A stretch of DNA of 64,000 bases from Norana najaformis (lineage: Eukaryota > Annelida > Clitellata > Crassiclitellata > Hormogastridae): the NCBI GenBank assembly GCA_964023275.1, contig OZ029920.1:5312014-5376013 (forward strand), read 5' to 3'. Below, one piece after another: positions 7,754-61,204 of this stretch. Each line of letters begins with the position of its first letter. Position 1 is the first letter of the stretch. The translations under genes were made by a program, and so were the position numbers. The notes below the pieces were generated by a model. That model saw only the letters and a program-made list of their open reading frames with translations, was not told the origin of the DNA and did not search any database.

Positions 7754-7811
7754 ATGGCGAAGCAAACAGAGTTTATAAAATTTGGCAACCTGAGTATTTG
7801 TCTCTTAACAG
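7754..7811 (+). CDS. Gene 1 exon 1: signal peptide
   Basis: The exon encodes MAKQTEFIKFGNLSICLLT plus one base and ends at a gtagct donor. Joined in phase 1 to the D1 exon it yields a hydrophobic run (LSICLLTVVSGA) typical of a cleaved signal peptide. The start is supported by 'atggcgaag' being conserved in all four copies of this exon, each 58 bp long to its donor. Confidence 0.8.
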
Positions 7812-10800
7812 GTAGCTTACGTTCTTTACTGAATTTATTATTACTAACAGGCCTATGCTATACAGAAGTGTCGTACGTTTGTATGTTAAGACGCTACCGT
7901 TATTTTGAAATACATATCCATTGAAATCATTTTGGTTAATCATATCTAATGTAACCTAATACGGAAACTCTTTTGCGCCACTTCAGTAATACTTTAAATA
8001 ACCATCACTGGTATAGCTTCTAAGTGAAATCAGTGTGCATGCCAAAAGAGGATGAGTCTGGTCGAAACCTAGAAGCTAGAATGGCGATCCATGTACAGAG
8101 ATACAGAAACAGAGATTCATTCATTTCGATTCTTTGGAAGTCTCCAAGCCAATCCAGGTTCCACATGCTGCAGTCATGCATCAGACTTGACCGCTCATTG
8201 AGCTACTGACATGTACTCTAGCCTGAACGATGAACTCGTTGACGTTATGGATGTTCAGTTGCAGCGCGTTCTATAATAAACCCAGGTGTTAGTCGTTTGT
8301 GTAACCAAGTGCTGCGAATGCTTACTTGAGTTATCGTCATTTCTTCAGGAACTCTGAACCTATCAGCAGTCCTTTATGTGCAAAAATCCTTTGATTTTCT
8401 CTCTACTTGTGTATGGTTCTCTGCTAAGGTTCATCAGTCACTATAACTTGCCTATAGTAAAACAGGGAGGAGACCCGACCGACGTATCCTTTGATCGTAG
8501 ACTTGGAACCGACCTGGGCTGATGAATCAAAGTCCTCCGTGCCCACCTTCACGTGGTGCAGACTGTTAGTACCCTTTCCATTATGGGAAGGGGAACGAAC
8601 GGGCACGGCAGGCAAATCCAGGGGAAGGCAATGGCAAACCACCCCTGTGAAAGTGCCAAGAAAACCGTCATGAGAAAAGACAATCCATGCAAAACAATAG
8701 TCGCAGATGGTGAGACTCCCAGGCGGGAGAGCGACTTAACAGCTACTGGGAAAGAGCGAGATGGAGAGTCAAGAGCAATCCGGTCTAATGAAGCAACGGG
8801 ACCAAAGCCGAAAGGACGTCCAGAGGCGGATCGCACCAGAAAGCAAAGACTCAACCTGAGCTGCAAGAAGAAGATGAAGATAGGCACGTGGAATGTGCGT
8901 AGTATGCAGAGCGGAAAGATGGATGTCATACAGAGAGAGATGAAGCGACTCGAAATATCAGTCATGGGATTAAGCGAGACAAGGTGGAAAGGACAAGGAC
9001 ATTTTAATTGGAATGGCTATAAGATAATAATGTCAGGGCAGGAGGAAAAAGGAAGAAATGGGGTGGCAATCATGTGTGATCAGACAAGTGCAAATGCAAT
9101 AATGGGATATGACACGATGAGTGACAGAATACTGAGCGTAAGATTTCGGGGAAGGAAGGTTAACATAACAATTGTACATGTGTACGCACCAACATCGATA
9201 GCAAAAGAAGAAGAGCATGAAAAGTTCTACACTGAGCTGTAAAGTACAATAGATAGAATCTCTAAGGGAGATGTAATAATGGTCATTGGTGACTTCAATG
9301 CGAAGGTGGGAAAGCACGTCGGAGGAGCAGGGGACACGATTGGAGGTCATGGACTAGGAGAACAAAATGAGGCAGGAGAAAGATTAGTAGAGTTTTGCGA
9401 TGGGAACAACTTGGGAATAATGAATACTTGGTTTGAACAGCCAAAAAGAAGACTGTACACTTGGACGTCACCAGATGGGAAACATCGGAATCAGATAGAT
9501 TACATACTGATAAACAAAAGATGGAAAAGCACGATAAGGGATGTAAGAACGAGACCAGGCGCGGATTGTGGAACTGATCATGAATTATTAGTGGCAACAG
9601 TGCAAACGAAATTGAAGAAATTGAAAAAGGAGAAAGACTGAACACGTATGACTGCAAAGGAATTACACCGGAATACAGAACGGAAATAAGGAATAGGTTT
9701 GAAATATTAGAGAGGGACGAGACGATGATAGATGAGGACACGAACCACCTGTGGGAGAAGGTGAAGGGAATAATATTAGAAACTGCGAGAAACACATTCC
9801 GAAGAAAAAGAAAGTCACAACAACTCCGTGGCTCTCGAAGGATGCTATCAACATAGCTGTAGAAAGAAAGGAGGCAAAAAAAGAAAGAGACAAAAACAAG
9901 GTACGAGAAATGAATAGAGCATTCCAAAAGCAAGCACGTATAGACAAAGAAAAACATCTAAATGCAATGTGCAAGGAAATGGAGGAAGAGGGAAAGAAAG
10001 GAAGAACTAAAGAAATGTTTTCAAAAGTGAGGGAAATAACGAGAAAATTCACACCAAGAACGGGATCGATGAGGTCAAGGGATGGACACATAATCGCAGA
10101 CGAAGAGGAAATGAAGAACAGATGGAAAGAATACACAGAGGAGCTGTACAGTGAAGATAGGAGAGTAATGAAAGAACGAATCGATACATCAGAACATGAA
10201 AAGGAACCGGACGTTTTGGAAGCAGAGGTGGAATGGGCAATTAGACAACTGAAGGACAATAAAGCACCGGGTCCGGATGGGATACCCATAGAAATGGTAA
10301 AAGCAGGAGATGGCGCAATGACAAAGACAATAACAAAAATGTGCAATATCATATGGACAACCGGAAAATGGCCAGAGGATTGGAAGAGCTCAATCTTTAT
10401 CCCTATATTCAAAAAAGGAGATGCGAGAGAGTGTGAAAACTACAGGACCATAGCAATGATATCGCACATAAGTAAAATACTACTTAAAATAATACATAAA
10501 AGAATGGAGAACATAATAGAGAGGGAGCTTCCAGATAACCAAGCAGGATTTAGGAAATCCCGCGGAACTCGTGATCATATCGTCAACATGCGGTGGATAA
10601 TGGAGAGACAAAAGGAGTATGGACAAAAATTATACATATGCTTCATTGACTATAGTAAGGCATTCGATTGCATTGATCATGAGTTGATGTGGAAAACCTT
10701 AATAGAAATGGGAATACCAAGGCACTTGATACAACTTCTTAAGGGATTGTACGAAGAACAGACTGCGGTAATAAGAACTGAATTTGGAGATACTGAAAGA

Positions 10801-13800
10801 ATCAAAATAAAGAAAGGAGTGAGGCAGGGATGCATTCTGTCCCCATTCCTATTTAACCTATATGCAGAAAGAATAATGAGGATGGCGGAAATGGATGGAG
10901 CAAAAGAGGGAGTAAAGATAGCGGGAAAAACACTGAATAATCTGAGATACGCAGATGACACAACACTATTAGCAGGTAAAAAAACAGATCTGGTAGAACT
11001 GATAAGAAGGCTGAAGAGAGAGAGCGAGAAAGCAGGACTATACTTCAATATAAAGAAAACGAAGATCATGACAACAGCTGAGGAGGGCAGTTTTATGGTG
11101 GATGGAGAGGAATTAGAGACGGTAACAAGCTTTACATTCTTGGGATCAGTAGTAGAAAGAGAAGGAAAGTGCGATATGGAAATAAACCGAAGGGTGGCGA
11201 TTGGAAAAGCCGCAATGAATGGACTAGAAAAAATATGGAAAGACAAACATGTGAGCACAGACACGAAAAAAAGATTGGTGAGGGCCTTGATTATACCAAC
11301 AGTAACATACGGCAGTAAGACGTGGACAATGACCAAGAAAATAGAGAAAAAAATCAATGCTTGTGAAATGTGGATATGGAGGAAGATGCTGAGAACATCA
11401 TGGACGGAGAAAAGGACTAATGAATGGGTACGCAAGGCGATTGGAATTGAGCAAGATGAGACGTTACAACAAACAGTGCTAAAATCAAAGCTGAGGTTCT
11501 TTGGACATGTTATGAGATCAGATGGATTGGAAAAAGGAATGATGCTGGCTTGTGGAGAGGGAAAGAGAAAACAAGGGAGACCAAGGAAAAAATGGATGGA
11601 CAAGATACACGAAGCAACTGGAATGAACTTGGCACAACTAAGGGACGAGACATTGGAAAGAAAGAAATGGAGAAGATTGATCAGGACGGTCGCTAGAGCT
11701 CAAAGAGCTGACAGCACAAGGTGTGTATGGGAACCTACTGAAGGAGACTTCTGCTATTCGAGCATCATTTGTTTACAGACGAACTTTCCTATCCTGCTGA
11801 ATTATAACATCGTTTAGACCAATGATGAGCGCCTTCAAGAGATTCTTTGAAGATGCTCTATAAATGTCCAGGTAAATGCATGCATACATACATACATACG
11901 TACATACATACATGCATACATACATACATACATACATACATGCATACATACATACATGCATACATACATACAATACAATACATACATACAATACAATACA
12001 TACATACAATACATACATACATACACATACATGTACTCATATATAAACACATAGACCTATATACTTTAGAATGTGCGTGATAGACCTGTTTGAACCCTCA
12101 AGTTTAGTTGTTTTTACCTCTGTGATTCATTGTGAGAAGGACGTTGTAGACACATATTAACTTTTATTAGTAAACAATTCTTCACTTCATGCTTCATGAG
12201 TAATTTCATTCGAACTTGCTATGGTCTGTTATCACCCTTAAATACGTTTTATACCCTTAAATACGTTTTATAAGTATACATAAAAATCAGGCTTACATAA
12301 AGCCTACACATTTTGAAGTCTATTTTGCTGGTCGCTAGGTATGAATTTCTAGCCCAGATACCATGCAGCTATTATAGTCGTGTACCTGTGCTCGTTAAAT
12401 CCCGGCCCTCAATCTTCGCAATCGTAAGCTCGAGATTTCTGCAGTGCCCTATCAAAGTTAAGTCACGAGAACCAACTTCTTCACTGACGCGTAGTCAAAA
12501 CAAAAGCTATAGGCAGGAAAGGTTCGGTTCCAGGTCAAGGTCCAAGAGTCAGTCAGGCAGACAATCTTCACAAGAGATCGACGTCCCTGATCTTAAGCCA
12601 TATATGAATCTTGATGCGGCATGTGAAAATGACAAGTGCATATCGCCTCGTGTAGCACATGAACTATTTCACCGTTCTACGAATATTGTTGACGAATTTA
12701 TACTTCAGCAGAAGGATATGTCAAATCCTAGATCATTTCTGCGAGTACAGTTCATACGAAGGAGCAATAAATAGGACAACACGATTACTTCTTAACATAA
12801 TCTCCCATAGTTTTTAATTATATTGGCCAAAGAAATCATTCATTACTGTTTTATGCTGTATAACGCAGTTGCCGTTCATTGTTCGACAGTCGTCAGTGGA
12901 GCAATAATCCAGACACCGTGGAATATGGCTACGAATGTTGGTGGTGGAACTTTCTTCAACTGTTCTAGTAATACTACACTTGGCATTTCTTGGTTAAATA
13001 CAACTGACTGCAACATTGCCTCTGGTACCCCTTTAACTGTGAACAATTGCGAACTCAACAACAGCTTCGCGTCTCATTACAGAACAGAGAAACCAGGAGG
13101 ATTCGTGTGCAATTTAATCGTATTCGATGCAGTGCTATCTCTTGGGGGATGTTACGTTTGCACTGATGGCCAAGGAGCTGGAACAACATACTATGCTATG
13201 CTAATAATCGTTGGTAGGCAGTTTCAATAAATGTACTTTCATCAATTTGATAAATTTATTACGACATGTCGCTTGACAATATTTTGTCGTTAAGAAATGG
13301 TTGGTGTCTTCTTCTTATGTCAGAGAGCAATCTCAGCCAAAGTTTTGGTTGCATTTATAAAACTAAAGTCATGTTTCAGCTGAATTTATGCTAATGTTTA
13401 AATTTATAGCTTTTTAGTTTGAGTGTTCCAATGCTAGCTTACATCATAGTTCAAATGGTCTAACGTATTTTGCACGTGTCTATGGAAATTTAATTTATTC
13501 TGATTTTGCTAATATTGCCTTCTGCGAAGGGGCTGGTAAGGTTTTGAAGTTGTAAGGGAGTAGTGAATCCAAAATCCTTCGATGAACCAGTAGAGACAGA
13601 GACAGAATTTTTATAACCATTTAGTATCATCAACACTTCTTGGCCAGGCTTCTTCTTGTCCAAATTTATGATGACCTTTTTGCTCTCAGTGGTTCACTAA
13701 TATCCTAATAAAAATTAGGCACCAAATATTTCTTTTTAGGGTCAAAAGAAACAAGATCTCCTCTAGACCATCACAATTTTGAGTGGGAGCAATGGTCTTG

Positions 13801-16130
13801 GCCCCCTGGGCCGACATTAATACGTGTGACCAATACCATTTTAAAGAGCCCTACAAAGGCGTTTGAACATGGATATATAACACATCTAAGCGTCCGGATT
13901 TAATTAGGCTGAAAATGACCGAGGCGGAAAAGTAATAATTTTAATGGAAGAATGAGCTCTGCACTGCCTCATTAGACCATTCTTTCTCGTGCATTGGACC
14001 GTTCTTCTTGAAAACCACATTGCACGAGAAAACACGTCGTGCGTGAAACGATATCAACAAGTCTCCACAGATCATTCCAGTGCTGCCCACTAGCCTGAGA
14101 ATCACCGACGATCAGACTGTCCCCGTACTGTTGATCTATATTTTTAAGGAATGAATATTTCTTCCAAAAATATCAATGACATCTTCCACCCAGTCTTTTT
14201 ATAAAGTCAACCATCATAACTGATATTTGTATCATACAGAACGACCATCTGGGTAATAGTAAAATCAGTTTCTTTGGAAATGGAGCAAATTCGGCTGTCA
14301 GTTCAGAGAAAGCTTCTGTGTCAAGGAACTCCTACTTTCTGATTGTAACCTTTGTGACTAGTTGCGTGGAGAGTAAAAACTGACTGTAGTACAGTGTTAG
14401 ATAGCTGTTATCGGAGACGGATGGAGCCTACGAGGTGACTGCAATTGACTTGCATTCGTCCCGCATTACGGCTAGGTCAAGAGTCTATATATGCTGTAGT
14501 ACTTTATAGTCTGTGTGCCATGCAACCATTGATTTTGCTTTTGATGAGAAGCGAGATGGCTGACTTTTTTTTCTCTTCTGATAAGAACACCATCTGAACC
14601 AAGATCAGAGAGGTGATGCAAACGGAAGTTAGGTGGAACCTATCCAGCTATTTCGTGTTATTTTTTTCACGTGCTGGAGACAATCTACTATTTTGACAAG
14701 CTTTCTAAAGCAGCCAAATACTTTCATTCTCTTTGCAATTTTGTATGTATAATGGCATTTATTCTACGTTTACTTTAAATCTCTTTCTACTGCAATCAAG
14801 TAAATGCAAGGCAGCTTCTGATAAATTAAAATGTTAAAATATAAGCTTCTGAACTCGCAAATAAACAGGAGATAGCAGTAGAATCTTGACAGAATGCTTC
14901 GTTTTAGCATAAACTCTACATCTCTTTACACACAATATATCGATGTTAAAGAATAAGATGAAATAATATTCCTTAACTAACACATGGCATCTCTCACAAA
15001 AGTAGCAATTTCAGTCTAAGTATTTTATCTAACGAACACGGTTTCTATATTTAGATTCAAACTCCAACATTGCTACCAATTCAACAGAAATAATTTCTGG
15101 AGAAGACGTTATGATATCGAACAGCGTCTCCTACAGAGGACCTTCGCTACCAATACAATCTCCTCCGTCATTTTACTGGACGCTGAATTCGGATCCCAGT
15201 CAGAACATTACCACTTACCCAGGATCAACAACAGACACAAGTGCTTCGTCTTACATCGTTGTTACAGCCCAACCAAAAAATGTTCCTCCATATGTCTGCA
15301 ATCTTTTCTTCAATCCGCCAAGTAATGTTCCTCTAAGCTGTGCAACTAATGCCCCGACCTATCGCACTAGCTGGGAAACACCGTCTTACAATGTTTCGTG
15401 TAAGTTTTGATCATTTGTTAGTAGCTGAGATAGGTTTGTTAACATAAGACGAATATGGATGTAACTAATCGAGTGTCAACTCGACAGGTCTGAAACAAGT
15501 TAATTTACGAATGTAGAATGTAAAGCCGTGCATTATGAATTTTTGATTTCGTAACTTAGCATGTTTAAAACCTTTAATGACTTTCGTAATTTCTAAATAT
15601 TACACATTTATCAAGACGAGAAATAGCCTTCGTTAAACGCGCTGATCTTTCCATACGATCACGCTAATAGTAAGCCTAATATTGCACAGAGTGACATTCA
15701 CATTGATTAAATTGGGTTTTGTTTTTAAACCATTTAAATCGTGTTTCAGCATCATAGCCCCTTTACTAGTGTGCTAGTGAATTGTATAAATTGTCATTTT
15801 ATCCTATGTTAAAGATAACATTCCACCCAACATAACGGCGACTCCATATTTCGAATCCACTGTGTGTGAGGCCAAAATACTCTTCTGTAAACCGAATGCA
15901 TATCCTCATGCCGAAAAGTATTGGGTGGATTTACAACGGAATATAAATATCTACCAGCAAAACATAACAGCTGAGTATCTCGATGAATACTCATGTGTCG
16001 CCACCAACGTCTTCAGGAATACTTCGCACAAAGCTTCTTCAACGTATTCCCTCTCAGACCGAGGTCAATTTTTTGTCGTAAGTTGAAATCATGGCATTTT
16101 ACTAATTCAATTTGTGTCATTTTTAACTTT

Positions 16131-16204
<74 letters not shown>

Positions 16205-18649
16205 GCTCAACTTCATGGGCTTGGTGGCATAAGCTCGTTATATCGTCAGCCGAATTAATGCCAGTCGGTCTGGGTGACCTTTTGTTGCGGATCGCTAAGG
16301 GAACTTCAAATAACTAGAGAGCAGGCAAGATTGAAGCAAGAGGACGATTGGAGTAGCGAGGTCGTTGGATGATGACTTGCTGATGAACATTGTAGGTCAG
16401 TTAGAGAACTCTGAATTGAATGAGCCTTTGCATTGTTAGCTATGAGAAAGCAGCATATTGAGTCATATGTCAGTCTCGTATGCAGTTTATCCATCGTTAA
16501 GTAGTATTTCTTAATTTAATGATGAAACAGAATTTGCTGAAAGCGACAAGGTGGAGATCATCTTGCCAAGCGATGGTCGCTGCGACAACTTCACGTGCAC
16601 ATGTCCCTGTTGCACTGAAGCAATTCTCAAGTGCTATGCACCCACTCTACCTGAGGCCGAATACAAATGGTTGTTCGGAGATACGGAGACAGAAGGGCCA
16701 ACTATAAAGCCAGCGGCAGATGGCAATTACACCTGTATCGCTTACAATACCGTCAACAATCAACGATTTACTGGGGAAAAAAGCATCAGCATTTCACACT
16801 TTTATGGTAATAATATAATATGCCTTTGCTTGCTTTACTTTACTTTACTATCGATCTTAGAAATAATTACATTATCGGTATCAATAGAGATTACATTCAT
16901 AATTTTAACTGCCTCAACGATTTTGCTTTTGACTAAGCGCCTGTTTAATAAGTCAAATTTCGCCAATTAGTTTTTGGGTGTTGAACAAATCTGGAGATTA
17001 CAATTACGTTCTTTCAACAGGAGTTGTTTCAACGAATGCATTTCTCTATTCGTGCAGATTTAATGATCTTATCATTTTGGTGGCATAAGCATTATGGCAT
17101 TTACAGTATCTAAAGATCTCACTGTACCCTAAGATCTTTGGTGTATTTATGTCAAGTTTATTCTTTCGTATTGAAGATGTCAAATATCAAGGTCTATTGC
17201 TATGGAACTTTTTGTTTTGAAGAGTTTCCACGAAATTGTCCTGTTTGTCCTGCCTCTGATGAAACTGCGGTCATTGTACTCAGCGTTTTCCTGGCTATAT
17301 TCGTGGTAGTCGTAATTGGATTAGTCACTTGGATCGTCTTCTGGCTGCTCCCTATAATACGGGCAATTCCAGGTATTTTAATTTAACGGAGTCTTGTACT
17401 GCGTTGATTATAATCTTAGAAAAAATGTAATTGTTCCGGTTTGTCTGAAACTCAATCTGACATGCTGCAAGTCACGAACAACAGCATATGTTGCTCTTTC
17501 ATGAATTAAAGGGAAATGTTCATAATGGAAACTAAAATGTGATTCACATCGCTAATCCTATCATAATTACACATGAACATGTTATTACTAATGTTCTTTG
17601 ACACCATTTAGGCTGTCGATGAGCACCTTCGACGGGTACCTGGAAGGCTCCATAATAATTATTCAGGGTTGCGAAGTCCAGAACTGCTTGCCTGATATCA
17701 GCATATGCATCCGTACATATACACGCACAACGCGCCTTTCATGAACCTTTCACAAGTGAGACGTTTCCACGAGGCGCTACATAAATGCATTACAAAACTG
17801 AATTAATTCGAAGTTTCAAAGTAGCATTAACACTATCGATAAAACGACGAGAACAACATCCAAAGTCCCATTTTGCATATTTGCATGTAATTAACTTCAT
17901 TATCGATAAGTAAGTCAATTGCATGCCTTCGTATCAATATTCGCCCCTCACATTGAATGGACCATGGAATAATGACCACAATGCATTCTAGCTATAGCGC
18001 AATTGTTGAATGAGGCCCTGCGTTCAAGTTATTAACCTTCATATCAACATGGCTGAGCCATCTTAAGAATGCGATTTCAGCAATCTGTTTTATCAGCTAA
18101 TATTGTCTGAGACAATTGGTATGCGGCAGATATCGACTGGTCACGGTAAGCCCGACTTTCGATCTGCAAGCGAACACAGTAATAACAATCAGGTTATTTA
18201 GAAATTCAGAGAATAGGAATCACGATTTGGATTATTCCTATTGGGCGATCTATTAACTATCAAACTAACAATAAGCCCCATAGAAAGATACTTAATGGAG
18301 TAATTATAATTTTACCATTCTGCATGCAAGTGAATAGACCAACAAACAGGTGAACCATTTCAGTCGCTTGGCTATTGGTCACATTTTCTTTCTCAGTCAT
18401 AAGCATAGTCTATGCACTAGAATTTTGTAAACTTGTGGTTTACTAAGAACTATTGTTATCTTTGCTTGCATAGGGTCGACGTCAAGTCCAAACGAGAACA
18501 ATTTGCACCAAGATGTCTATGAAGATGTAGTGAAACCGGGTACGTCGCCTGAATCTTCGCCATACGAATCGCTGCAGCAACCCACAGCATCTGCCTATCA
18601 GGAACTCACACTGCGACATACGGCAAATGAAGATGCTAGTATAAGATAA
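7754..18649 (+). CDS. Gene 1: four-Ig-domain transmembrane receptor with ITAM-like tail
   Basis: Exons are 7754-7811 (signal peptide), 12890-13213 (D1), 15055-15399 (D2), 15815-16063 or 16077 (D3), 16531-16806 (D4), 17223-17372 (transmembrane) and 18474-18649 (cytoplasmic, stop TAA). All junctions are GT-AG and phase 1, the usual rule for shuffled extracellular Ig exons. The layout predicts a type I surface receptor with SH2-binding tyrosines. Compared with gene 3, the D3 exon lost 10 bp just before its donor. Using the homologous donor (16078) shifts the frame into stops in D4; a GT at 16064 would keep phase 1 and give about 525 residues. Whether the gene is functional therefore depends on splicing. 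Intron 1 contains an RTE retroelement. Ligand and partners are unknown; an allorecognition or immune role is inferred by analogy with Hydractinia Alr and vertebrate ITAM/ITIM receptors. Confidence 0.75.
8417..11721 (+). mobile_element. RTE-type non-LTR retrotransposon in intron 1 of gene 1
   Basis: The paralogous intron of gene 3 has an uninterrupted site at about 50550-50565, which defines the insertion directly. A 9-bp target duplication tgtgtatgg is at 8408-8416 and 11722-11730. The body encodes an apurinic-type endonuclease and reverse transcriptase of the RTE/BovB kind. No microsatellite tail is seen. It lies in the same orientation as gene 1. Confidence 0.88.
8553..11720 (+). pseudogene. 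RTE endonuclease-reverse transcriptase, disabled copy
   Basis: Endonuclease motifs are KIGTWNVRSM (from about 8878), GLSETRW, GDFNAKVG and the RTE-typical YTWTSPDGKHRNQIDYI. The reverse transcriptase follows, with NKAPGPDGIP, FIDYSKAFDCIDHE, GVRQGCILSPFLFNLY and the catalytic LRYADDTTLL. The reading frame is broken by an in-frame TAA at 9240-9242, a frame change near 9630 and another near 9800; from 9751 to the element's 3' end the frame is open. The last residues of the long open frame, after about 11721, are host intron sequence. RTE elements normally encode one protein of about 1000 residues, so this copy is nearly full length but inactive. Confidence 0.85.
11874..12032. repeat. (CATA)n-type microsatellite in intron 1 of gene 1
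   Basis: About 160 bp of catac/cata tetranucleotide units with interruptions. The paralogous position in gene 3 (50680-50850) carries a shorter and more degenerate version, so the repeat predates the duplication. Long frames here (runs of Tyr-Met-Cys-Val or His-Thr-Tyr-Ile) are artefacts. Confidence 0.92.
12480..12580 (-). repeat. Antisense fragment of an L2-like 3' untranslated region
   Basis: On the minus strand this matches the 3' untranslated part of the L2-like element at 49180-49260 (common phrases 'ggttcggttc', 'aggtcaaggtcc', 'gagtcaggcaggcaga'). Further copies are at about 30497-30575 and 51430-51540; the latter is the paralogous site in gene 3. Confidence 0.6.
12890..13213 (+). CDS. 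Gene 1 exon 2: Ig-like domain D1
   Basis: A 324-bp phase 1-1 exon. The acceptor is ttcgacag at 12882-12889 and the donor is at 13214. The domain has FFNCSS (B-strand-like), ISW (C strand) and FVCNL (F strand), plus extra cysteines in DCN, NCELN and GGCYVC, six or more in all. The first cysteine, tryptophan and later cysteine support a V-like fold; the GGCYxC end is unusual. The same exon is exactly 324 bp in genes 2 and 3. Confidence 0.75.
15055..15399 (+). CDS. Gene 1 exon 3: Ig-like domain D2 (atypical)
   Basis: A 345-bp phase 1-1 exon after the acceptor tatttag; donor gtaagt at 15400. It contains FYWTL and YVCNLFF, but no cysteine in the expected B-strand position (the stretch around VMISNSVSYRG). 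Its only other cysteine is downstream, in LSCATNAP. An Ig-like fold without the canonical disulfide is likely but not proven from sequence. Confidence 0.65.
15815..16077 (+). CDS. Gene 1 exon 4: Ig-like domain D3, damaged 3' end
   Basis: The acceptor follows gttaaag; the domain runs through PPNITATPYFES, ILFCKPNAYP, YWVDL and DEYSCVATN, a clear I-set-like C-W-C pattern. Compared with gene 3 the end of the exon lacks 10 net bases ('caatttttt' against 'caattttcacagactccat'). With the paralogous donor at 16078 the exon is 263 bp and shifts the frame. A GT at 16064-16065 (gag|gtcaat) gives 249 bp and keeps phase 1, but is a weaker donor. Confidence 0.65.
16136..16200. repeat. (TA)n microsatellite in intron 4 of gene 1
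   Basis: A pure run of about 65 bp of alternating T and A. The corresponding place in gene 3 lacks it and instead holds extra sequence with a SINE. Confidence 0.95.
16531..16806 (+). CDS. Gene 1 exon 5: Ig-like domain D4
   Basis: A 276-bp phase 1-1 exon: acceptor gatgaaacag, donor gtaata at 16807. It opens with a cysteine cluster (RCDNFTCTCPCC), then LKCYAP, YKWLFGD and DGNYTCIAYN, the classic C-W-DxxYxC pattern of a C2/I-set domain. The cysteine-rich N-terminal part is unusual and may form extra disulfides. Gene 3 has the same exon length. Confidence 0.78.
17223..17372 (+). CDS. Gene 1 exon 6: stalk and transmembrane helix
   Basis: Entry in phase 1 requires the acceptor ttttgttttgaag|ag at 17221-17222, which has a good pyrimidine tract; using the upstream 'atgtcaaat' would break the phase. 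The exon encodes a short Cys-Pro stalk (EFPRNCPVCPASDE) and a strongly hydrophobic stretch of about 25 residues (VIVLSVFLAIFVVVVIGL, continued), then RAIPG. Donor at 17373. Confidence 0.8.
17595..17660 (+). repeat. Short retroelement 3'-tail phrase shared by paralogous introns
   Basis: The 'gagcaccttcgacgggtacctggaaggc' segment followed by an A/T-rich tail also occurs at 59820-59870 in gene 3, and in related form at 11826 and 1-85. It resembles the 3' end of an L2-mobilised SINE. It predates the gene 1/gene 3 duplication. Confidence 0.4.
18474..18649 (+). CDS. Gene 1 exon 7: cytoplasmic tail with ITAM/ITIM-type tyrosines
   Basis: The last exon follows the acceptor cttgcatag and ends with TAA at 18647-18649. 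It encodes 57 residues with three tyrosines: VYEDVV, then SPYESLQQPTASAYQELTL. The last two form YxxL-x7-YxxL, the spacing of an ITAM, and each also fits the ITIM rule SxYxxL. Such motifs recruit SH2-domain kinases or phosphatases in vertebrate immune receptors; the same use here is inferred. Confidence 0.8.
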
Positions 18650-42802: not shown

Positions 42803-42875
42803 ATTAGAGTAAAAATTTAAACAAATAGTGTTAATGAAATTTATTTAATTTTCTTATCAAATTGAACTTTGTAAC

Positions 42876-49970: not shown

Positions 49971-52900
49971 GTAGTCTACGTTCTTTACTGAAGTTATTAT
50001 TATTAATAGGCTATGCCATCCATAAGAGGTGTAATGTATTTGTATGTTTAGACTATACGGTGATTTTGAGAGAATTAAAAATCGGTTGAAATAATTTTAC
50101 ATTATCATATCTAATTTGATCTAATCTGGAAATTTGTATATGGCCATTATTCTAATGATAAAATCCATCATTGGTACCTTCTAAGTGAAATCGATGTGCG
50201 TGTTAAAATCTAGGGCCAATCTGGTCGACTCCCAGAAATCAGAATGGCGATCCATGTAAACAAAGATCTGGAAAAACTTTCTTCGGAGAAAAGAGATTTG
50301 TTTGGAAGCCTTTAAGCAAATCCAGGTTCCTCAGAGCAGTCATGCATCGGAAGAGACCCCGCATTGGGCTATTCTCAAGTGCTCTAGTCTGCACGACGAA
50401 TGAGATACTCGGTTGTTCTATCATAAACACACATGTTAGCCGTTAGTGTAACCGTGTGCTGCTAATGCTTACTTGAGTTATCGTCATTTTCTCAGAAACT
50501 CTGAACCTACCACTAGTCCTTTATATGGAAAAATCCTGAGATTTTCTTTCTACTTGTATGCGAAAGCCTACTGAAGGAGACTTCTATTATTCGAGCATCA
50601 TTTGTTTACAGACAAATTTTTCAATCTGACGGAATTATAACATCGTTTAGACTAACGATCAGCCCAAGTACAATGTACATTCATGACTGCATGCATGCAT
50701 ACATACATACTTACATACACGCAGGCATACATACAAATTTACATACACACATACATACTTATGCATATACATACATGCATATACACATACATTCATACAC
50801 TCATGCATACATACATACACATACATGAACACATACATAAATACACAGATCTATGTACTTTAGAATGTGCGTAATACACCTGTTTTGAACTCTGAAGTTT
50901 TGTTGTGTTTACGTACCTCTGCGAATACGTATGAGAAGGACTTTGTAGATACATAGTTAACCTATAAACAAAATGCTATCGACGATTGACAGTTGATCCC
51001 TATTCGGTGTCACCAATCAATCCAGAAACCTGGGAATGACCTTCATAAGGCGGCTAGCTATCGTCCAATTTTCTTGCTCTCCGTAAGTTTTAAGCTTCTC
51101 GAACGGCATTCTGAAAACTAGGCATTCAGTTCACTACTTTAATGGTGCCGAGTGGCTTAATACTAAAACGACATTTTAGACTTGTGTCTTAATCTATTTT
51201 AAAATCCTTTAATTTTCAATTTCAGCCTCATATATATATATATATATAAATCAGGCTTACATATAGCCTACGAATTTTGAAGGCTATTTTCTGGCCGCTA
51301 GGTGTGAATCTCCCGCCCAGATACCATGCAGTTATTATAGGTCTGTACCTGTGCTCGTTAAATCCCGCCCTCAATCTTCGCAATCGTAAGCTCGAGATTT
51401 CTGCAGTGCCATATCAATGCTAAGTGGCGAGAACCAGTTTCTTCACAGACGCGCACTCAAAACAAAATCGATAGGCAGGAAAGGTTCGGTTTTAGGTCAA
51501 GGTCGAAGAGTCAGGCAGGCAGACAGTCTTCACAAGAGATCGACGTCCCTGATCCTAAGCCATATATGAACCTTGATGTGGCATGTGAAATTGACAAGTG
51601 CTTATCGCCTCGTGTAGCATATGAAATATTTCACAGTTCCATGAATATTGTTGGCTCATTCACGCTTCAGTAGAAGGATATGTCAAATCTTAGATCAACT
51701 CTTCTAGTAATATTAATCGGATAGAGCAATAAATAGGACAACGCGGTTACTTCTTAACATAATTTTAAATCGGTTTTAAATATCTTTGCCGAAGAAGTCA
51801 TTCATTACAGTTTTATGCAATATGATGCAGTTGCTGTTCATTGTTCGACAGTCGTCAGCGGAGCAATAATTCAGAGACCGTTGAATGTCGCTACGAATGT
51901 TGGTGGTGGAACTTTCTTCAACTGTTCTAGTAATAATACAATTGGTATTACGTGGTTACATACAACTGATTGCAACACTGCCACTGGTATCCCTTTAACT
52001 GTGAGCAATTGCGAACTCAGCAACAGCTACGCATCTAATTACAGAACAGAGAAACCCGGTGGATTTGTGTGCAATTTGGTCGTATTTAATGCAACGTTGT
52101 CTCTTGGTGGATGTTACGCCTGTACTGATGGCTTCGGACCTGGAACGTTATCCTATGCAATGCTAGTCACCGTCGGTAGGCAGTGCAATAAATGTCTTAC
52201 GATATGCCTCTTGACAATATTTTGTCGATAACACATGGTTGTTTTCTTCATATGTCGGAGAGCAATGTTAGCTAAAGTTTGGCTTGCATTTATAAAACTA
52301 AAGTCATGTTCCCGCTTAATTTATGGTAATGTTTAAATTTATAACCTTTTAGTTTGAGTGTTTCGATGATAGCTTACATCTAAGTTCAAATGACCTATCT
52401 TGTTTTGTACGTATTTATGGAAATTTATTTTATCCTGGTTTGCTAACATTGCCCTGTGCAAAGGTGCTGGCACGGTTTTGAAAGTGTAGGCAGTAGTGTA
52501 TCCAATAATTCTTCGCTGGTCCAGTTGAGAAGAGCAAAAATTTTTATTGCCTTTAACTATCATCAACACTTCTTGGCAAGTCTTCTCCTTGTCCAAATTT
52601 TTGACTTGACCTTTATTGCTCTCAGTGGTTTACTGATATCCTAATAAAAATTAGGCACCAAATATTTCTTTTTACAGTCAAAAAGAAACAAGATCTCCCC
52701 TAAACCATCACAATTTTGAGTAGAAGCCAGGGTCTTGGCCCTCCTGTGACGACATTATTACATGTGACTAATAGCATTTTAAAGAGCCCTACAAAGGCGT
52801 TTTGAAAATGGCTATCTAACACATCTAAAAGTTACGACTTTAAATAGGGTGAAAATGACTGCGGTGGAAAATTAAGAATTTTAATGGAAGAAAAAGCTCT

Positions 52901-55900
52901 GCATGCCTCATTGTACCAATTATCGACACTGGTCCTATAAAGAAGGATTTTAAATAATAGTCTGTCCTCAATCGGAAGCCAATGTAGTGTCTCTCATATG
53001 TAGCTCGAAACATGCGATAAATTTAGCTGGTTAGCGACAATTTGGGAGGCGCAGTTGTGGATGGACTGACCCTGTCTTATCCGGAACTTCGGCAGGTTCG
53101 CCAGCACAGCCTTCCAATAATCCAGGCTCGTCAGATTGATGAATGGACAAGAGTCGCTTAGTAGCTAACAGATAATTCCAGTTCTGCCCAATATCCTGAG
53201 AGTCACGGACAATCAGACTGTCCCAGTACTGTTGATCTATATTTTTAAGGGATGAGTATTTCTTCCAAAGAAATCAGTGAGATCTTCTTCCAGCCAGTCT
53301 TTTTATAAAATCAATCATTATACCTGACATTTAACGCATCGCTGTACACATCGATTCACATCATCAAGTGAGAAGATTACTTCTTTTGCGATCTAACCGT
53401 TACAGAACTAGATCGTCGATTACAAAGTCTAGAGTAGTATCATACAGAATGACCATCTGGGCAATAGAAATAGTGAGATCAGTTTCTTTGGAAATGGGAC
53501 AATTTCGGCTGTCAGTTGACGAAAAGCTTCTGTGTCAAGGGAATTCTACACTCTGATGGTAACCTCTGTGACTAGTTGCGTGAAGTGTAAAAACCGTATG
53601 TAGTACAGTGTTAGCTAGCTGTGATCGTAGATGGATGGAGGCTACGAGGTGACTGCGATTGACCTGCATTCGCCCCACATTATGACTATTTCTAGAGTCT
53701 ATGCTGTAGTCCTTTATGGTCGGCGCGCCATGCAACCATTGATTTTGCTTTTGATGAGGAGCGAGATGGCTGACTTTTTCTCTTCTGAGAAGAGCAGATC
53801 AGACAGATAAGGAGCCAATCTACTGATTTCAGGAGGGCTTTAAAGTAGCCAAATACTTTTATCCCCTTGTAATTTTGTTTGTATAATGGCATTTGTTCTG
53901 CGTTAACTGTAGTTCTCATTCTGCTGCAATCCAGAAAATGCAACTCAGCTTCTCTTAAATTAAAATGTTAAAAAACAAGCTTCTGAGCTCGCAAATAAAT
54001 AGAAGATAGCAGTAGAATCTTGACAGAATGCTTCTTATAGCATAATCTCTCCATCTCTTTATATACAGTATATCGACGTTAAAGAATAAGATGAAACAAT
54101 ATTCCTCAACTGACACATGGCATCTATTACAAAAGTAGTACTTTCATTCCAAGTATTTTATCTAACGAACACGGTTCCTATTTTTAGAATCAAACGCCGG
54201 CATTACTACCAATGCAACTGAGTTAGTTCCTGGAGAAGACGTCATGATATCGAACAGCGTCTCCTACAGAGGACCCTCAATGCCAATACAATCTCCTCCA
54301 TCGTTTTACTGGACGCTGAAGTCGGATCCGAGTCAGAATATTACCAGTTATCCAGGATCAACAACAGACACAAGTGCATCGTCGTACATCGTTGTTACAG
54401 CCCAAACGCCATATGTTCCTCCATATCTCTGCAATCTTTTCTTCAATTCGCCAAGTAATGTTCCTCTAAGCTGTGCAACTAATGCTCCGACCTATCGCAC
54501 TAGCTGGGAAACACCGCCTTACAATGTTTTGTGTAAGTTTGGTCCTCTGTTAGTAGCTGAGATAGGTTTGCTAACATACGATGAACATGGATATAATTAT
54601 TAGAGTGTCAACTTGACAGGTTTGAAACATATCAATTTACGAATGTAGAGTGTAAACGCGTGCATTTTGGATTTTTGCATTCGTAATTTAGCATGTTTAA
54701 ATCCTTTATTGGCTTTCGTCTCTCTAAAACAATACACATTTATCAAGACGAGAAAATTGCTTTCATTAAATGCGCTGTTCTTTCCATACCATCACGCTAA
54801 GGATAAGCCTAATATTGCAAAGAGTGAGATTCACATTGATTTAATTGGGTTTTGTTTTTAAACCATTTAAATCGTGTGTCAACATCATAGCCACTTTAAT
54901 AATGTGCTAATGAATTGTATAAATTGTCATTTTATCCCATGTGAAAGATAACATTCCACCCAATATAACGGCGACTCCATATTTCGAATCTTCTGTGTGT
55001 GAGGCCAAAATACTCTTCTGTCAACCGAATGCATATCCTCATGCCGAAACGTATTGGGTGGATTTACAACAGAATATAAATATCTACCAGCAAAACATAA
55101 CAGCTGAATATCTCGATGAATACTCATGTTTCGCCACCAACGTCTACAGGAATACTACGCACAAAGTATCTTCAACGTATTCCCTCTCAGACGCAGGTCA
55201 ATTTTCACAGACTCCATGTCGTAAGTTGAAGTCATGAAATTTTAATTATTGAAATTGTGTCATTTTTACCTAAAGTGGCGCTGATATTTCAATGTAGTGA
55301 CCATGCCGACTCTATATGTAGGTCGTGCTATTAATATGTAAAGATTTCGGCAGTCCTTGTGTGCGGTGATGCATGGAGAGCTAAATAAGAGAATGTGATG
55401 AGCTAAATGTTAGTCAGCTTTGACGATTGGAAGATTGCAGGGGATAGGGACTGCTGCATTGATAAACACTGTATAGTACGGCTTATATATCGGCTCCAAA
55501 GCTACAAAATGAAAGTTTTAACTATACAATTTTAAAGAATGGTGGGACATGATAGTGTAGTGGTATAGTCGGTGCTTCGTAACCGGAGGGTCGCTGGGTC
55601 CAATCTGCCTCAAGCCACTGCGTAGCGACCGTGGACAAGTTGCTCACCGACAGTTGTCTGTGAGGAAGGCAACGGAAACTACCTCACTCATCTCATCCCC
55701 GGGTGGCATAAAGCCAATGGACCAGCCTTTGGGTAGAGAATTCATCATCATCATCATCATTAAAGAATGACGAAATATACGAATAAATACATATATGTAC
55801 CTAGGCGCTCAAATGATGGACCTGGTGGCATATGCTCATTACATCATCAGCCTAATGATTGCCATTCGGTCTGCTCCATATTTTCTTGCGGATGGGTTAG

Positions 55901-58900
55901 GGAACTTCAGATAAGTAGAGAGCAGGTATCATTGAAGCAAGAAGACGATTGGAGTAGCTGGGTTGTTGGATGGTGACATGTTGATGAACATAGCAGATCA
56001 GTTAGAGAACTTTGAATTGAATGAGCCTTTGCATTGTTAGTGACGAGAAAACAACATAATGATGCATACATGTATGTCAGTCTCGTATACATTTCATCCA
56101 TCGTCAAGCAGTTTTTCTTAATTTAATGATGAAACAGAATTTGCTGAAAACGACAAGGTGGAGATCATCTTGCCAAGCGAGGCTCGCTGCGACAACTTCA
56201 CGTGCACCTGTCCCTGTTGCACGGAAGCAGTTCTCAAATGCTATGCACCGACTTTACCTGAGGCCGAATACAAATGGTTTTTCGGAGATACGGAGACAGA
56301 AGGACCAACTATAAAGCCAGCGGCAGATGGCAATTACACCTGTATCGCTTACAATACTGTCAACAATCAACGATTTACTGGAAACAAAAGCATCAGCATT
56401 TCACACTTTTATGGTAATGATATAACATGCGTTTACTTACTCTCGATCTTAGAAATATATACATTATCGCTTTCAATAGAGATTACGTTCTTAACTTTAA
56501 CTGCCTCAATTATTTTGTTTTTGATGGAGCGCCTGTTTAATAAGCCAAATTTCGCCAATTGGTTTTTTGGGCGTTGAACAATTCTGGACATTACAATTAC
56601 GTTATTTCAACAGAAAGATTGGAGTTGTTTCAAAGAATGCATTTCTCTGTTCGTGCAGATTTAATGACCTTACCAGTTTTTGGCATAAGCGTTATGGCGT
56701 ATCTAAAGATCTCACTGTACTCTAAGGCCTTTTGCGCATTTATGTCAAGTTTTTTCTTTCTGATTGAAGATGTCAAATGTCAAGGTATATAGCTACGGAA
56801 CTTTTTGTTTTGAAGAGTTTCCACCAAATTGTCCTGCCTGTGATGAAACTGCTGTCATTGTGCTCAGTGTTTTCCTCGCTATCTTCGTGATAGTCGTCAT
56901 TGGATTAGTCACTTGGATCGTCTTCTGGCTGCTCCCTAAAATACGAGCATTTCCAGGTATTTTAATTTAACGGATTCTTGTACTGCGTTGATTATAATCT
57001 TAGAAAAAATGTACTTGTTCCGGTCTGCCTGAAACGTAACATGACATGCTGCAAGTCACGAACAACAACAAATCTTGGTCTTTCGTAAATTAAAGGGAAA
57101 TGTTCATAATGGAAACTGAAAAGTGATTCACATCGCTAATCCTGTCATAATTACATATGAACATTAGGGTGTTTTTATGTACTACATGATATTTTCAACT
57201 CAAAGATATTTTACCGAATTATCATGCCAATTTATGTATAAACTCAATATCGGAAATTATATCTTGATAGCTGAACATTTAGGACTTGCGCAAATTAGGA
57301 ACCCAGTGATCTTCCTCGTTTGGCCAAAATTTGCGACATCACGATTTCTGTTCTTCGTGTTTTCGATTTTATTCTTATAGTAATTAATTATTATGTTAAA
57401 TTAATGTGTCATATCGCAGGTGAATGGCAAATTTGACTAGAAAAAGATTTATATTTGGTTGATTGGTTACTCCGGTTACGTGAAGCTAACTACACGAGGA
57501 GAGGTTCTCAACGTGTTGTTTAATTTCCATACACAATGGAATCAGAGTCTGGATGACAGTATGACATAAACCGTCGCTATGATACTTCCATTTTGGGAAA
57601 GTGCACGGATTCCAACGAAGGCTAAGAATCGTGTTTTGGAACAGCTAAGACGTATTCACAAGGAGTGGCAAAAAATCAAAAATGTATTTCGAGGAAGTCT
57701 GACACCGAAGAGGGAAAGCGCGATGCTTTGAGGGATTCCTTGCAGGATCTCTTTGATCCCGCGCATCAAGATGCCATGACTACAACAAGAAAGAAGAGGA
57801 TCGGCAGTTTTTGAAAGCACAGCATGAGAAAGGTCGACTTGGTTCCATGGCAGGCATTGATGTCGAACTTGCAAAGCAAGAAGAGAGAGCGCTGGCAAGA
57901 TCAGCAGCGGCTTCACAGCGTGAGGAACGATATCGTGCAGCAATCACAGCTGTAGCGACGGAGGTGTCTCTGTGGGAAACGTCATATGAGAAAGAGGCGT
58001 CATTAAATAGTAACTGTTTTTAAAAAAAGAGCCAGAAAGATAATAACTGTTCAGAAAAAGACCCAGAACCTTCAACGTCTGCTGAACCACCAAAGCAGCA
58101 AAGGGGAACAATGTGTAGTTACTCGTGATGTTGCAGCAGCTCTGGATATAACCAAAACAAGCAGTAGGAAGGCCTCTCGCATTTTTCTGCTCTCGCTGCA
58201 TCCAATCTATACGCAGCACCAGCTGATGAGCTGATCATCAGTCCATCTGCAATCCATCGAGCAAGGTAAGATAACAGTGCAGCCCTAGCAGCTGATTTTC
58301 GTGAATCGTTCGATCCAAAGGTCCCCCTACTATCCACTGGGACGGCAAGATCATGTCGGATTTTACAAGAACTGGATGAGGTTGTGTTGATCGCCTTCCA
58401 ATAATGGTATCTGGTAAATATGTGGCCAAGCTATTGGCCATCCCCAAACTCTAATCCGGGACTGGATGCGTGTTTGGCCGAGATCAGAAGTTGGGGATTG
58501 GAAGACAGAATCGTGGCCATGTGTTTCGTCACAGCGGCGAGTAGCACGAGTTGCAAGGTCAAGCTGGAAACGGAATTAGGAAAGTACCTCTTGAACCTTG
58601 CGTGTCGACATCATGTTTCAGAAATTGTTCTCGAAAAGGTGTTTTCACTTCATGATTATGCAAGGTCTGCAAACTTGGAACCCTTCAGTCATTGCCGTGA
58701 CTTCTGGCCTCAAATCGATCAGGCCAAGTATCGCACAGCAATGGAGGATAAAGACGCAGAACAGCGTGTCAAAGAAATTCGAGAAAATGTCATCACCTTC
58801 GCATTGCAGCAACTGAGTACTGAACACCACAGAGACGACTACGAAGAGCTACTAGAGCTGACAGTCATCTTCCTAGGAGGAATTCTACCGAAAAGGAGTA

Positions 58901-61204
58901 AAGTTCAGGTACACAGAGGTATTTCACCGGGCGCGTTGGATGGCGCGTGCGATCTATGCGATCAAGATGTGGCTTTTCAGAGAGCATTTTCCCATTCAAC
59001 AACGCCGGAGCATAGAGAGGGCATCTCGACAGATGTGGAATCATTTACTTTGAGTATCACTTTTAGTGACCACAACCTACGTGAAGTACTGGTTACTGTA
59101 CATCACCCACTGAAGCCCCAAGGAGCGATCTTCAATTCTTGAAGGCAATCCATACTTACCCAGACAAGGAACTCTCACAGGTCGCCGTAACAGCATTTTC
59201 CGACACCTTTAGTGTTTGATCCAACTACAAAAGCACTACCCGATTTCTTCACCACTTCCACTACCAAACTTTTTCAGATCCTTAGACTGGATGACGCTTT
59301 TCTTGATCGAGACCCGCAACAATGGGAGTCAGAACAATCATACAATGAGGCAAAATACATCACATCCGCCTTAAGAGTGGCGAAGGATTTGGTGGAGAGA
59401 ACAGAGGCTCTCATGCAGTCTTTCTATAAAGCCCTGGTCCGCAACGAGGAAGAGAAACAATTTGTTCTGCAAATGGTCGAGTACCATCGAAACAAATTTC
59501 CAAATGCACTGAAGTGAATGAATAAAGGACAAATAACTGACTGTTCTTCTTTTGACTTAGATTTATTTTCTACATTTAATTGTTGAAATTGTTTGGATCT
59601 TTGAAAATTAAGACGTATCACGTTGCTTTCTAAGTGATAATTCTTCTGGGGCTTTGCGCAAGTTCTAAATCTATTCTGGTTTTCATATAATTTGGCAAAT
59701 AACAATCTTTCTCAAGGTGGAACACAAAAACAACTTGGCAGATATTAATTTTGAAACTTGAAATTTAAGCCACACCTTAATGAACATGTTGTTACTAATG
59801 CACTTTTACATCATTTAGGCTGCCGAGGAGCGCCTCCGACATGTACTTGTAAGGCTGCATAATAATCGATCGTTGTCCCGAAGTCCAGAACTGCATGCAT
59901 GATATCAACGTATGCATCCGTACATATACACGTACAATGCGCCTTTTTGAACCTAACACAAGCTATACGTTTCCAAGAGGCGCTACATAAATGCATTAGA
60001 AAACTGAATTAATACGAAATTTCAAAGTAGCGTTAAAATTATCAATAAAACGACGATAGCAATATACAAAGTTCATTTTTGTATATAATTAACTTCTTTA
60101 TCAATAAAGAAGACAATTGTTTCAATAATAGGACCCTCGCATTGAAAATAGACTATGAATCAATCGCCATAATGCGCTCTAGGCATAGTGTTAGTGTTGA
60201 ATGAGGCCCTGTGTTCAAGTTATTAACCTTCATATCAACATGGCTGAGCCTTCTAAAGAATGTGATTTCGGCAATCTCTTTATCAGCTAATATTGTCTGA
60301 GACGATTAGTATGCGGCAGATATTTACTTGTCAAGACAAGCCCGACTTCCGATCTGTAAGCGAACATATAGTAATAACATGTTGGCTCTGCTCCATCATA
60401 TCTTAGCGACTTCTGCATTTCGGTCTCCTTGGTTCCAGGCCGTAGCACTCTCCGGTCGGCCTCCCTTGGACTTCTGACTGTCCCTCGTATGCGCACTGCT
60501 ACAGCGCAGTCTAGAAGCTTTGCTTATGTTGGACCCAATAGCTGGAATTGCCTTTCCCGAGAGCTTCGGCTAATATTCCTCAGTTTGTCTCTTCCGCAGT
60601 TTCGCAAGCGCCTGAAGTCTGTATTATTTGCCAGTGGTCTCACTGGTTCGGGTCGGGAGCGCTTCTGATGAGTCTATTCTTGAAGTGGCGCTTTATAAAT
60701 GTCAGATTACAATTACAATTACAATTACAACAATCAGGTTATTTAGAAATTCAGAGAATTAGAATCACGATTGGGCGAGATTCCTATTGTGCGATCTATT
60801 ATCAAACAAACAATAGGCCCTACATAACGAAAACTAATGGAGTAATTGCATTTTTAGCAATCTGCATGCAAGTGACTGGATCAACAAATAAGTGAACCAT
60901 TTCAGTCGCTGTAATTACTAATGCTTGGTTGATGGTCACATTCTCTTTCTCAGTCATAAGCATAGACAGGCACTAAAATTTGAAAACCTGTGGTTCACTA
61001 AGCACTTTTATTATCTTTGTTCGCACAGTGTCTACGTCAAGTCCAAACGATAACAATTTGCGCCAAGATATCTATGACGATGTGGTGAAACCGGGTACTT
61101 CGCCTGAACTCTCGCCATACGAATCGCTGCAGCAACCCACAGTGTCTGCCTACCAGGAACTCACACTGCGACAAAGGCCAGAAGAAGGTGCTAGTATAAG
61201 ATAA
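49913..61204 (+). CDS. Gene 3: intact four-Ig-domain receptor with ITAM-like tail
   Basis: Exons are 49913-49970, 51852-52175, 54188-54532, 54948-55220, 56138-56413, 56816-56956 and 61029-61204. All are phase 1, total 1593 bp and encode 530 residues, with no stop or frameshift. Order: signal peptide, D1, D2 (no B-strand cysteine), D3, D4 (cysteine-rich start), Cys-Pro stalk and transmembrane helix, cytoplasmic tail with YESL-x7-YQEL. Gene 1 is its close paralog along the full length, introns included. Intron 1 has no RTE; intron 4 has a SINE; intron 6 has a hAT element and a truncated L2-like element. Expected at the cell surface; ligand unknown. A homophilic or allorecognition role is an analogy with Hydractinia Alr and not shown. 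Confidence 0.82.
50680..50850. repeat. Degenerate (CATA)n microsatellite in intron 1 of gene 3
   Basis: The counterpart of 11874-12032 with more interruptions. Confidence 0.9.
51852..52175 (+). CDS. Gene 3 exon 2: Ig-like domain D1
   Basis: 324 bp, acceptor ttgttcgacag, donor at 52176. It has FFNCSS, ITWLHTTDCN, SNCELS, FVCNLV and GGCYACTDG. N-glycosylation sites (NCS, NNT, NAT) are present. Confidence 0.8.
54188..54532 (+). CDS. Gene 3 exon 3: Ig-like domain D2
   Basis: 345 bp as in gene 1, acceptor tatttttag, donor gtaagt at 54533. Contains FYWTLKSDPSQNIT, YLCNLFF and LSCATNAP. The B-strand cysteine is absent. Confidence 0.75.
54948..55220 (+). CDS. Gene 3 exon 4: Ig-like domain D3
   Basis: 273 bp, phase 1-1, donor gtaagt at 55221. 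Contains SVCEAKILFCQPNAYP, YWVDLQ and DEYSCFATNVY, ending SQTPC. The full 3' end here shows that gene 1 has the deletion. Confidence 0.8.
55542..55759 (+). mobile_element. tRNA-derived SINE in intron 4 of gene 3
   Basis: A pol III-type head has an A-box-like tagtgtagtgg and a B-box-like gggtccaatctg. The element ends in (atc)n and is flanked by a 10-bp target duplication ttaaagaatg at 55532-55541 and 55760-55769. The length is about 218 bp. Confidence 0.8.
56138..56413 (+). CDS. Gene 3 exon 5: Ig-like domain D4
   Basis: 276 bp, acceptor gatgaaacag, donor gtaatg at 56414. Contains RCDNFTCTCPCC, LKCYAP, YKWFFGD and DGNYTCIAYN. Nearly identical to gene 1. Confidence 0.82.
56816..56956 (+). CDS. 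Gene 3 exon 6: stalk and transmembrane helix
   Basis: 141 bp after acceptor ttttgttttgaag, donor gtattt at 56957. It is three codons shorter than in gene 1 in the stalk (NCPACDE against NCPVCPASDE). The helix and its flanks (WIVFWLLP) are conserved. Confidence 0.82.
57165..59779 (+). mobile_element. hAT-type DNA transposon in the last intron of gene 3
   Basis: The paralogous intron of gene 1 (near 17570-17590) has the empty site. An 8-bp duplication atgaacat is at 57157-57164 and 59780-59787. The termini tagggtgt... and, on the other strand, taaggtgt... form a short inverted repeat fitting the hAT pattern (TARGG). The length is 2615 bp. Confidence 0.82.
57600..59517 (+). pseudogene. Transposase-like gene of the hAT element, broken
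   Basis: Open parts are 57811-58023 (basic and coiled, ELAKQEERALARS), 58420-59142 and 59212-59517, in different frames with frameshifts between them. The middle part has LACRHHVSEIVLEKVF and FSHCRDFWPQID; the last part has DPQQWESEQS and EEEKQFVLQMVEYHRNKFP. I recall these from widespread uncharacterised transposase-like proteins of cnidarians and arthropods. The hAT label comes from the target duplication and termini; the protein alone would not settle it. Confidence 0.6.
60380..60728 (+). mobile_element. 5'-truncated L2-like element in the last intron of gene 3
   Basis: Gene 1 has the empty site 'agtaataacaatcagg' near 18178-18193. The fragment encodes the usual L2 end (LRSASLGLLTVPRMRTATAQ, FAYVGPNSWNCLSREL, then FRKRLKSVLF and a stop). 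It ends with 'ggcgctttataaatgtcagattacaattac' and an (attaca)n tail. A short aaca duplication is possible. Confidence 0.82.
61029..61204 (+). CDS. Gene 3 exon 7: cytoplasmic tail with ITAM/ITIM-type tyrosines
   Basis: Acceptor ttcgcacag, stop TAA at 61202-61204, 57 residues. Contains IYDDVV and SPYESLQQPTVSAYQELTL. All three tyrosines and their hydrophobic +3 residues are kept relative to gene 1, while the residues around them vary, which suggests selection on the motifs. Confidence 0.82.

Follow-up and report, generated by a model that had tools for sequence, protein, structure and literature searches.

The closest systems described are clustered genes for surface receptors of the immunoglobulin (Ig) type, and what is said of them here is taken from excerpts of the cited papers. 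The FcoR proteins of Botryllus schlosseri are 520-610 amino acids long and consist of a variable Ig domain, a second domain of the sushi type, two C2 Ig domains, a transmembrane segment and a tail with Yxx[ILV] motifs; one FcoR haplotype is described in the excerpt as holding FcoR genes only (PMC12065747). The Alr genes of Hydractinia code for transmembrane proteins of Ig type and form a cluster in which pseudogenes are numerous (PMC11067881), and the same is reported for the clustered Alr genes of Podocoryna (PMC13119343). Alr proteins have V-set and I-set domains (PMC11999971), and immunoreceptor tyrosine-based activation and inhibition motifs (ITAM and ITIM) are reported for them (PMC12065747). 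In the ceacam genes of Xenopus the exon phasing is conserved and gene conversion is limited to the N-domain exon (PMC5112662). A convergence of clustered Ig receptors with ITAM/ITIM-type tails has been argued (PMC12065747). The present paper deals with a locus of the annelid Norana najaformis contained in a window of 64,000 nucleotides (contig OZ029920.1 of assembly GCA_964023275.1, C8:5312014-5376013). Judged from its genes, their copies and their tails, it is probably a cluster of type I surface receptors for recognition that evolves by birth and death of its genes.

Gene structure

The window contains on its plus strand three related gene bodies, A, B and C, and at least three relics, R1, R2 and R3. 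Coordinates of genes and exons are given in window numbering unless they are called contig positions. The exon borders were set by comparing the copies and by checking the splice sites. An earlier note on this DNA had placed a tandem cluster with these genes and relics at 7754-61204. The copies were found by comparison, and the limits are exact: gene A (7754-18649) starts with the leader ATG at 7754, and the stop codon of gene C (49913-61204) ends at 61204. Both genes consist of seven exons coding for a leader, four domains D1-D4, a transmembrane segment and a tail. The internal exons, ten in the two genes together, each have a length divisible by three, AG/GT borders and phase 1. The spliced models of 525 (A) and 530 (C) residues are free of internal stops and 85% identical to each other, which bears out the phase-1 modular plan proposed before.

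In gene A the leader exon (7754-7811, with a phase-1 donor) has an upstream region that is common to A, B, R3 and C. It is followed in the splice model by the exons of D1 (12890-13213), D2 (15055-15399), D3 (15815-16063) and D4 (16531-16806), the transmembrane exon (17223-17372, hydropathy 3.41) and the tail exon with its stop (18474-18649). D3 of gene A has to use the weak donor gtcaat at 16064, since with the strong gtaagt at 16078 the exon would be 10 bp shorter than that of C and the frame would be lost. An open reading frame at 12301-12774 was considered as an exon and rejected. The corresponding exons of gene C are the leader with its upstream region (49913-49970), D1 (51852-52175), D2 (54188-54532), D3 with the strong donor gtaagt (54948-55220), D4 (56138-56413), the transmembrane exon recognized by hydropathy (56816-56956) and the tail with its stop (61029-61204). 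The last intron of C has an insertion at 57165-59779 that is missing from A; it carries transposon-like frames, and no Pfam match was found for 58405-59142.

Gene B (22362-28394) has kept the leader (22362-22419, by comparison of copies and the upstream region), D1 (23430-23753), D2 (24261-24614) and D3 (26645-26893). Its D4 exon (27436-27691, B-type), identified by family search and translation, is broken by stops and a frame change, the transmembrane exon (28252-28394) runs into a stop, and the tail is lost, a dead tail exon being recognizable by homology at 29847-29939. When A and B were compared by blastn (word 11, E 1e-5, pieces above 60 nt), three islands only were obtained, each made of an exon and some tens of bases. 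Intact, tail-less and dead copies had been described as lying side by side. This mixture stands overall, apart from the tail-less B, which is best read as a decayed copy, because the copies G4 and X1 outside the window keep a phase-1 donor (CAAG/gt) in the transmembrane exon that B is without, and because its tail exon is dead.

The relic R1 has a leader (20284-20338, by comparison of copies) and a D1 with stops (20820-21026, tblastn E 3e-9 to D1 of B). R2 has a leader that has lost its start codon (30935-30991, read directly and by homology to R1) and a disrupted D1 recognized by homology (31608-31843). Seven pieces of the R1 and R2 regions can be aligned, at identities of 66-81%, and the region upstream of the next leader is among them. 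In R3 the body is missing; its leader exon (34131-34188) looks intact, together with the upstream region, and shares 91% identity with the leader region of G4. This leader might be spliced to C, 17.7 kb farther downstream, as an alternative first exon.

Extent of the cluster

A total of 250 kb of flanking sequence was added to the window, so that 314 kb were searched in all, and the best of overlapping matches was kept at E≤1e-4. At this threshold 12 D1 matches were obtained, 10 of them without stops. The open D1 copies belong to O (contig position 5255528), X1 (5308222, minus strand), A, B, C, G4 (5378498), G5 (5388514), G6 (5395553), G7 (5406083) and G8 (5413063). Family matches span contig positions 5255528-5418392, or 163 kb; counted from X1 onwards, with the outlier O excluded, the span is about 132 kb. 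The outermost parts of the searched region, 64 kb on its left and 88 kb on its right, gave no family match. B, G5, G7 and R1-R3 are damaged or partial copies. The exons of G4 are open one by one, as is each of the six G8 exons that were found; a G8 leader was not found in the searched region. A tandem cluster with decay is supported, and the flanks add many copies to it.

Gene O (C8:5255528-5259811), a distant relative, lies at the edge of the cluster and has matches to D1, D2, D4 and the transmembrane exon. Its D2 has a cysteine at a position where the other nine D2 have none, and O is possibly nearer to the ancestral form. Protein searches gave no homologue of the family, either with C alone as a query (5233 candidates at E≤1) or with A, B and C aligned (5718 candidates at E≤10); the same database yields 652 relatives of a mobile element of the window among 7985 scored. 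No relative of D1 was found in viral contigs, in a search that may have skipped records of this genome itself.

Probable exchange of modules

Two membrane halves occur among the copies, an A-type (A, C, G8 and the broken G5) and a B-type (X1, G4 and the broken B), whose D3 domains are about 26% identical as compared between A and B. The outer domains do not follow this division. In comparison with C, the other eight close genes are 64-85% identical in D1 and 64-86% in D2, whichever membrane half they have. X1 is 91% identical to A in D1 and 94% in D2, with a synonymous divergence (dS) of 0.06 in each, while its D3 is of the B-type (80% identical to B), as are its D4 and transmembrane exon. G4 and G5 differ by a dS of 0.10 in D1 and 0.27 in D2, and G4 has the B-type half while G5 has broken A-type remains.

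The D1 and D2 trees of nine genes, with O left out, reject each other in the approximately unbiased test (p 0.004 and 0.005). Between A and C the dS of D1 is 0.346 against 0.155 in four other exons (p 0.01), or against 0.166 when leader and transmembrane exons are included (p 0.014). A mosaic test on three genes (p 0.002 for D1, 0.017 when merged; 0.13 and 0.93 for D2) stands, though it is superseded by the nine-gene trees, and the idea of an exchange confined to D1 was dropped after the flanking copies were examined. An exchange of exons and of half-genes is the simplest account of these relationships. An assembly error could also have produced the mosaic pattern, which was observed in one assembly.

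Tails and tyrosine motifs

An ITAM follows the pattern Yxx[LI]-x6-8-Yxx[LI], and an ITIM the pattern [VILS]xYxx[LIV]. In the tails of both A and C all three tyrosines are located within Yxx[LIV], a result that 100,000 shuffles gave in 0.15% of cases for A and 0.49% for C. The fragment YESL-x7-YQEL fits the ITAM spacing, and this pattern occurs in 0.15% (A) and 0.34% (C) of 100,000 shuffles. Each tail also has two motifs of the ITIM pattern, since YESL and YQEL each fit it as well. The G8 tail contains SPYESL and SVYQEL at the same spacing as A and C, with phenylalanine at the first site, and the G4 tail contains YENV, YESL and YEEL. YESL together with Y[QE]EL is therefore kept in all four full open tails that were read (A, C, G4, G8), and the spacing is ITAM-like in three (A, C, G8). 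The paired tyrosine motifs of the earlier note are in this way found again in copies beyond the window. The remaining tail matches are damaged, short or altered (a stop in G7, the dead B, a 37-residue piece at contig position 5418282), and no X1 tail was found in the searched region.

Activation would be more likely than inhibition as the output of the tail pair, because the distance of 11 residues between YESL and YQEL in A, C and G8 is that of an ITAM. For G4 and X1, tailed and tail-less forms are conceivable, because the transmembrane exon reads to a stop when its donor CAAG/gt is unused. A weak match to SCIMP (13.6 vs 27 bits) was set aside.

Identity of the extracellular domains

D3 and D4 belong to the Ig superfamily by profile similarity. 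A joint profile of D3, D4 and the D3 of B retrieves 191 sequences at E≤1 and reaches Ig domains at 6e-13, and the best relatives of this profile in the PDB are axonin-1, CEA, contactins and neurofascin. The B-type D3 of gene B reaches 37.6 bits in Pfam Ig_3 against a cut-off of 30. No Ig match in Pfam was found for D3 of A or of C taken singly, and their assignment comes from the joint alignment with D4 and the D3 of B. D4 of A matches Ig_3 below the cut-off; D4 of C is recognized by Pfam and by the profile.

The D1 copies of the window have no Ig match in Pfam, and in the profile search they give a weak V-domain match (E 0.09), in which 10 of 13 rows are named T-cell receptor (TCR) and one 'Beta-chain'. 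Among the reversed controls, the single sequence matches a Fab at 0.25 and the three-sequence profile matches no Ig, its best value being 0.88. D1 of the relative O, 37% identical to D1 of C, passes Pfam ig (22.7 vs 21.8) and scores 21.9 for V-set, below its 26. A profile of ten D1 sequences, for which no reversed control was run, retrieves 149 sequences at E≤1 and reaches 1.6e-4 for TCR V domains, and 51 of the 60 listed matches are TCR or antibody chains, the other nine being other Ig proteins. D1 can thus be assigned to the V-like Ig domains, the relative O tipping the balance. The AlphaFold confidence (pLDDT) was 41 for D1 and 31 for D2, both too poor for a fold search.

The fold of D2 is unproven. 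Its profile gives E 0.012 with three sequences (reversed best 1.2) but 0.23 with ten, and D2 of O reaches 14.3 in Ig_3 against a cut-off of 30. By eye, two cysteines are present in each of the nine close D2, and a sushi domain was not matched in any of the six D2 scanned (A, B, C, G4, G5, O). An Ig fold had been expected for all four domains; it is supported for D1, D3 and D4 by profiles and Pfam, and D2 is at most a candidate.

Coding constraint

In the exons of A and C the mismatches by codon position are 41/31/67 of 497/496/497 (p 0.0006). A long intronic frame used as a control is flat (13/20/14 of 118/117/117, p 0.40). The leader was left out of these counts, and the 9-nt length difference of the transmembrane exons may blur their codon phase. 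Over alignable sites the identity is 90.75% in exons and 86.41% in introns; BLAST pieces starting at 11870-11940 were dropped from this alignment comparison. Five of the seven exons (leader, D2, D3, D4 and tail) are more similar than both their flanks. The ratio of nonsynonymous to synonymous divergence (dN/dS) between A and C is 0.39 (95% interval 0.26-0.56; 450 codons, leader and transmembrane exons left out). Among the paralogues, in the nine genes without O, the pairwise means are 0.39 for D1 and 0.36 for D2, and pairwise selection on both domains is purifying. Diversifying selection that acts between alleles or on single sites is not favoured by this pattern, yet it is compatible with it.

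Proposed function of the cluster

Recognition is the likely role of the cluster, and its likeness to loci of recognition receptors, suggested before, is strengthened by the flanking copies and by the shuffling of modules. In the mechanism that may be proposed, D1, with D2, would be the ligand-contact part, and the ligand may be another cell or a microbe. Clustering by the ligand would allow Src-family kinases to phosphorylate the tail, and the YESL/YQEL pair would then recruit a Syk-type kinase. Because the phase-1 exons are symmetrical, D1, D2 and the membrane half could pass from one gene to another by unequal crossing-over or conversion, and the moved modules could give new combinations of receptor and output. 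Perhaps, as a more tentative proposal, the locus is a hitherto undescribed recognition system of animals, independent of Alr, FcoR and the paired receptors of vertebrates. In such a system V-like D1 and D2 exons would be mixed in the germline, between genes and onto two membrane halves with tyrosine-motif tails, and diversity would come from recombining the parts for binding with those for signalling.

A number of observations weigh against a recognition receptor cluster. The models of A, B and C are known here from the DNA sequence alone, and D3 of A has its weak donor. In the tails, the last two motifs of G4 are 15 residues apart (x11), outside the ITAM spacing, two tyrosines are gone from the open tail of G6, the ITAM consensus has an acidic residue at -3 that is absent here, and the dN/dS of the tail between A and C is 0.65 with an interval of 0.26-2.04. 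The D2 profile loses strength with more sequences. D1 and the transmembrane exon do not exceed both their flanks in A-C identity, the transmembrane exon alone also has a high dS (0.27), and the tree tests were made with nine short sequences and several weak nodes. No diversifying selection is seen at the pairwise level, because dN exceeds dS in 0 of 36 pairs for D1 and 0 of 36 for D2.

A true allorecognition locus, like fuhc/FcoR of Botryllus or Alr of Hydractinia, in which fusion or rejection is decided by polymorphic outer domains together with the tail, would agree with the size of the cluster and its shuffling, with a layout and length near those of FcoR, and with the clustering and many pseudogenes of Alr as excerpted (PMC11067881). 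It is nevertheless unlikely, given the missing sushi match, the empty protein searches and the purifying selection between paralogues, and the view is from one haplotype. Endocytic sorting signals of the YxxL/V type bind AP-2, and their pattern overlaps with those of ITAM and ITIM. The genes might then be ordinary adhesion Ig proteins in a young expansion with sorting signals in the tail, which purifying selection and the PDB relatives of D3/D4 would fit; the paired motif kept in four full tails and the high turnover with module exchange speak against this, and we regard it as improbable. Damage in B, G5, G7 and R1-R3 and the weak donor of A could even suggest a decaying cluster with no working copy. 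However, C is open across all seven exons, the exons found in G4 and G8 are each open, and constraint is seen between A and C, which makes such a cluster very improbable indeed.

The reading as a cluster of recognition receptors is therefore the one retained. If this role holds, a further animal lineage would pair clustered Ig receptors of fast turnover with ITAM/ITIM-type tails. The locus offers exact exons for a direct test of the swapping of recognition and signalling modules.

Mobile elements and neighbouring genes

A long interspersed nuclear element (LINE) with RNase H occupies 39020-44912 on the minus strand, with an ORF2 frame open for 1274 codons and an adjacent ORF1 frame of 678. It has 652 related proteins at E≤1e-20 (best 66% identical), and no relative was found in the viral contigs or genome contigs searched, which may lack entries of this same genome. 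On either side of this block an 800-bp direct repeat (35901-36700 and 46273-47071) is 99.25% identical, which is either a recent duplication or an assembly effect. A LINE piece at 10000-10300, in the first intron of A, is a recent expansion, since 40 or more copies of it exist in the genome and those listed are 99-100% identical. An L2/CR1-like LINE frame at 34718-36004 contains the stretch GDIHPNPGP, which we take to resemble a 2A peptide. Two adjoining frames at 3431-5143 (410 and 159 residues) code for a transposon-like protein with a zf-AD match below the cut-off. A scan of Rfam gave 0 matches. Between O and X1 there are Kelch and RING/B-box frames, and on its right side the cluster is followed by frames of zinc-finger, PRDM-like and sugar-transporter type.

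Comparison with known systems

The nearest layout, by description only, is that of Botryllus schlosseri FcoR, which likewise comprises multigene type I receptors of similar length and order of domains with Yxx[ILV] tails, according to the excerpt of PMC12065747. However, the second domain of FcoR is a sushi domain, and membership in the FcoR family fails on it, as judged from the six D2 scanned. The Alr genes of Hydractinia, also compared by description, resemble the present genes as clustered transmembrane genes with pseudogenes, a trait that is not specific to Alr. With contactin- and neurofascin-type adhesion proteins the locus shares the Ig domains matched by the D3/D4 profile; it differs from them in the tyrosine-motif tail and the tandem array, and no fibronectin domain was found in C by Pfam. 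The CEACAM, KIR and LILR receptors of vertebrates are similar in their tandem arrangement and in ITIM/ITAM-like tails, while their Ig similarity to the present genes is generic only and no clear inhibitory/activating pair is seen here.

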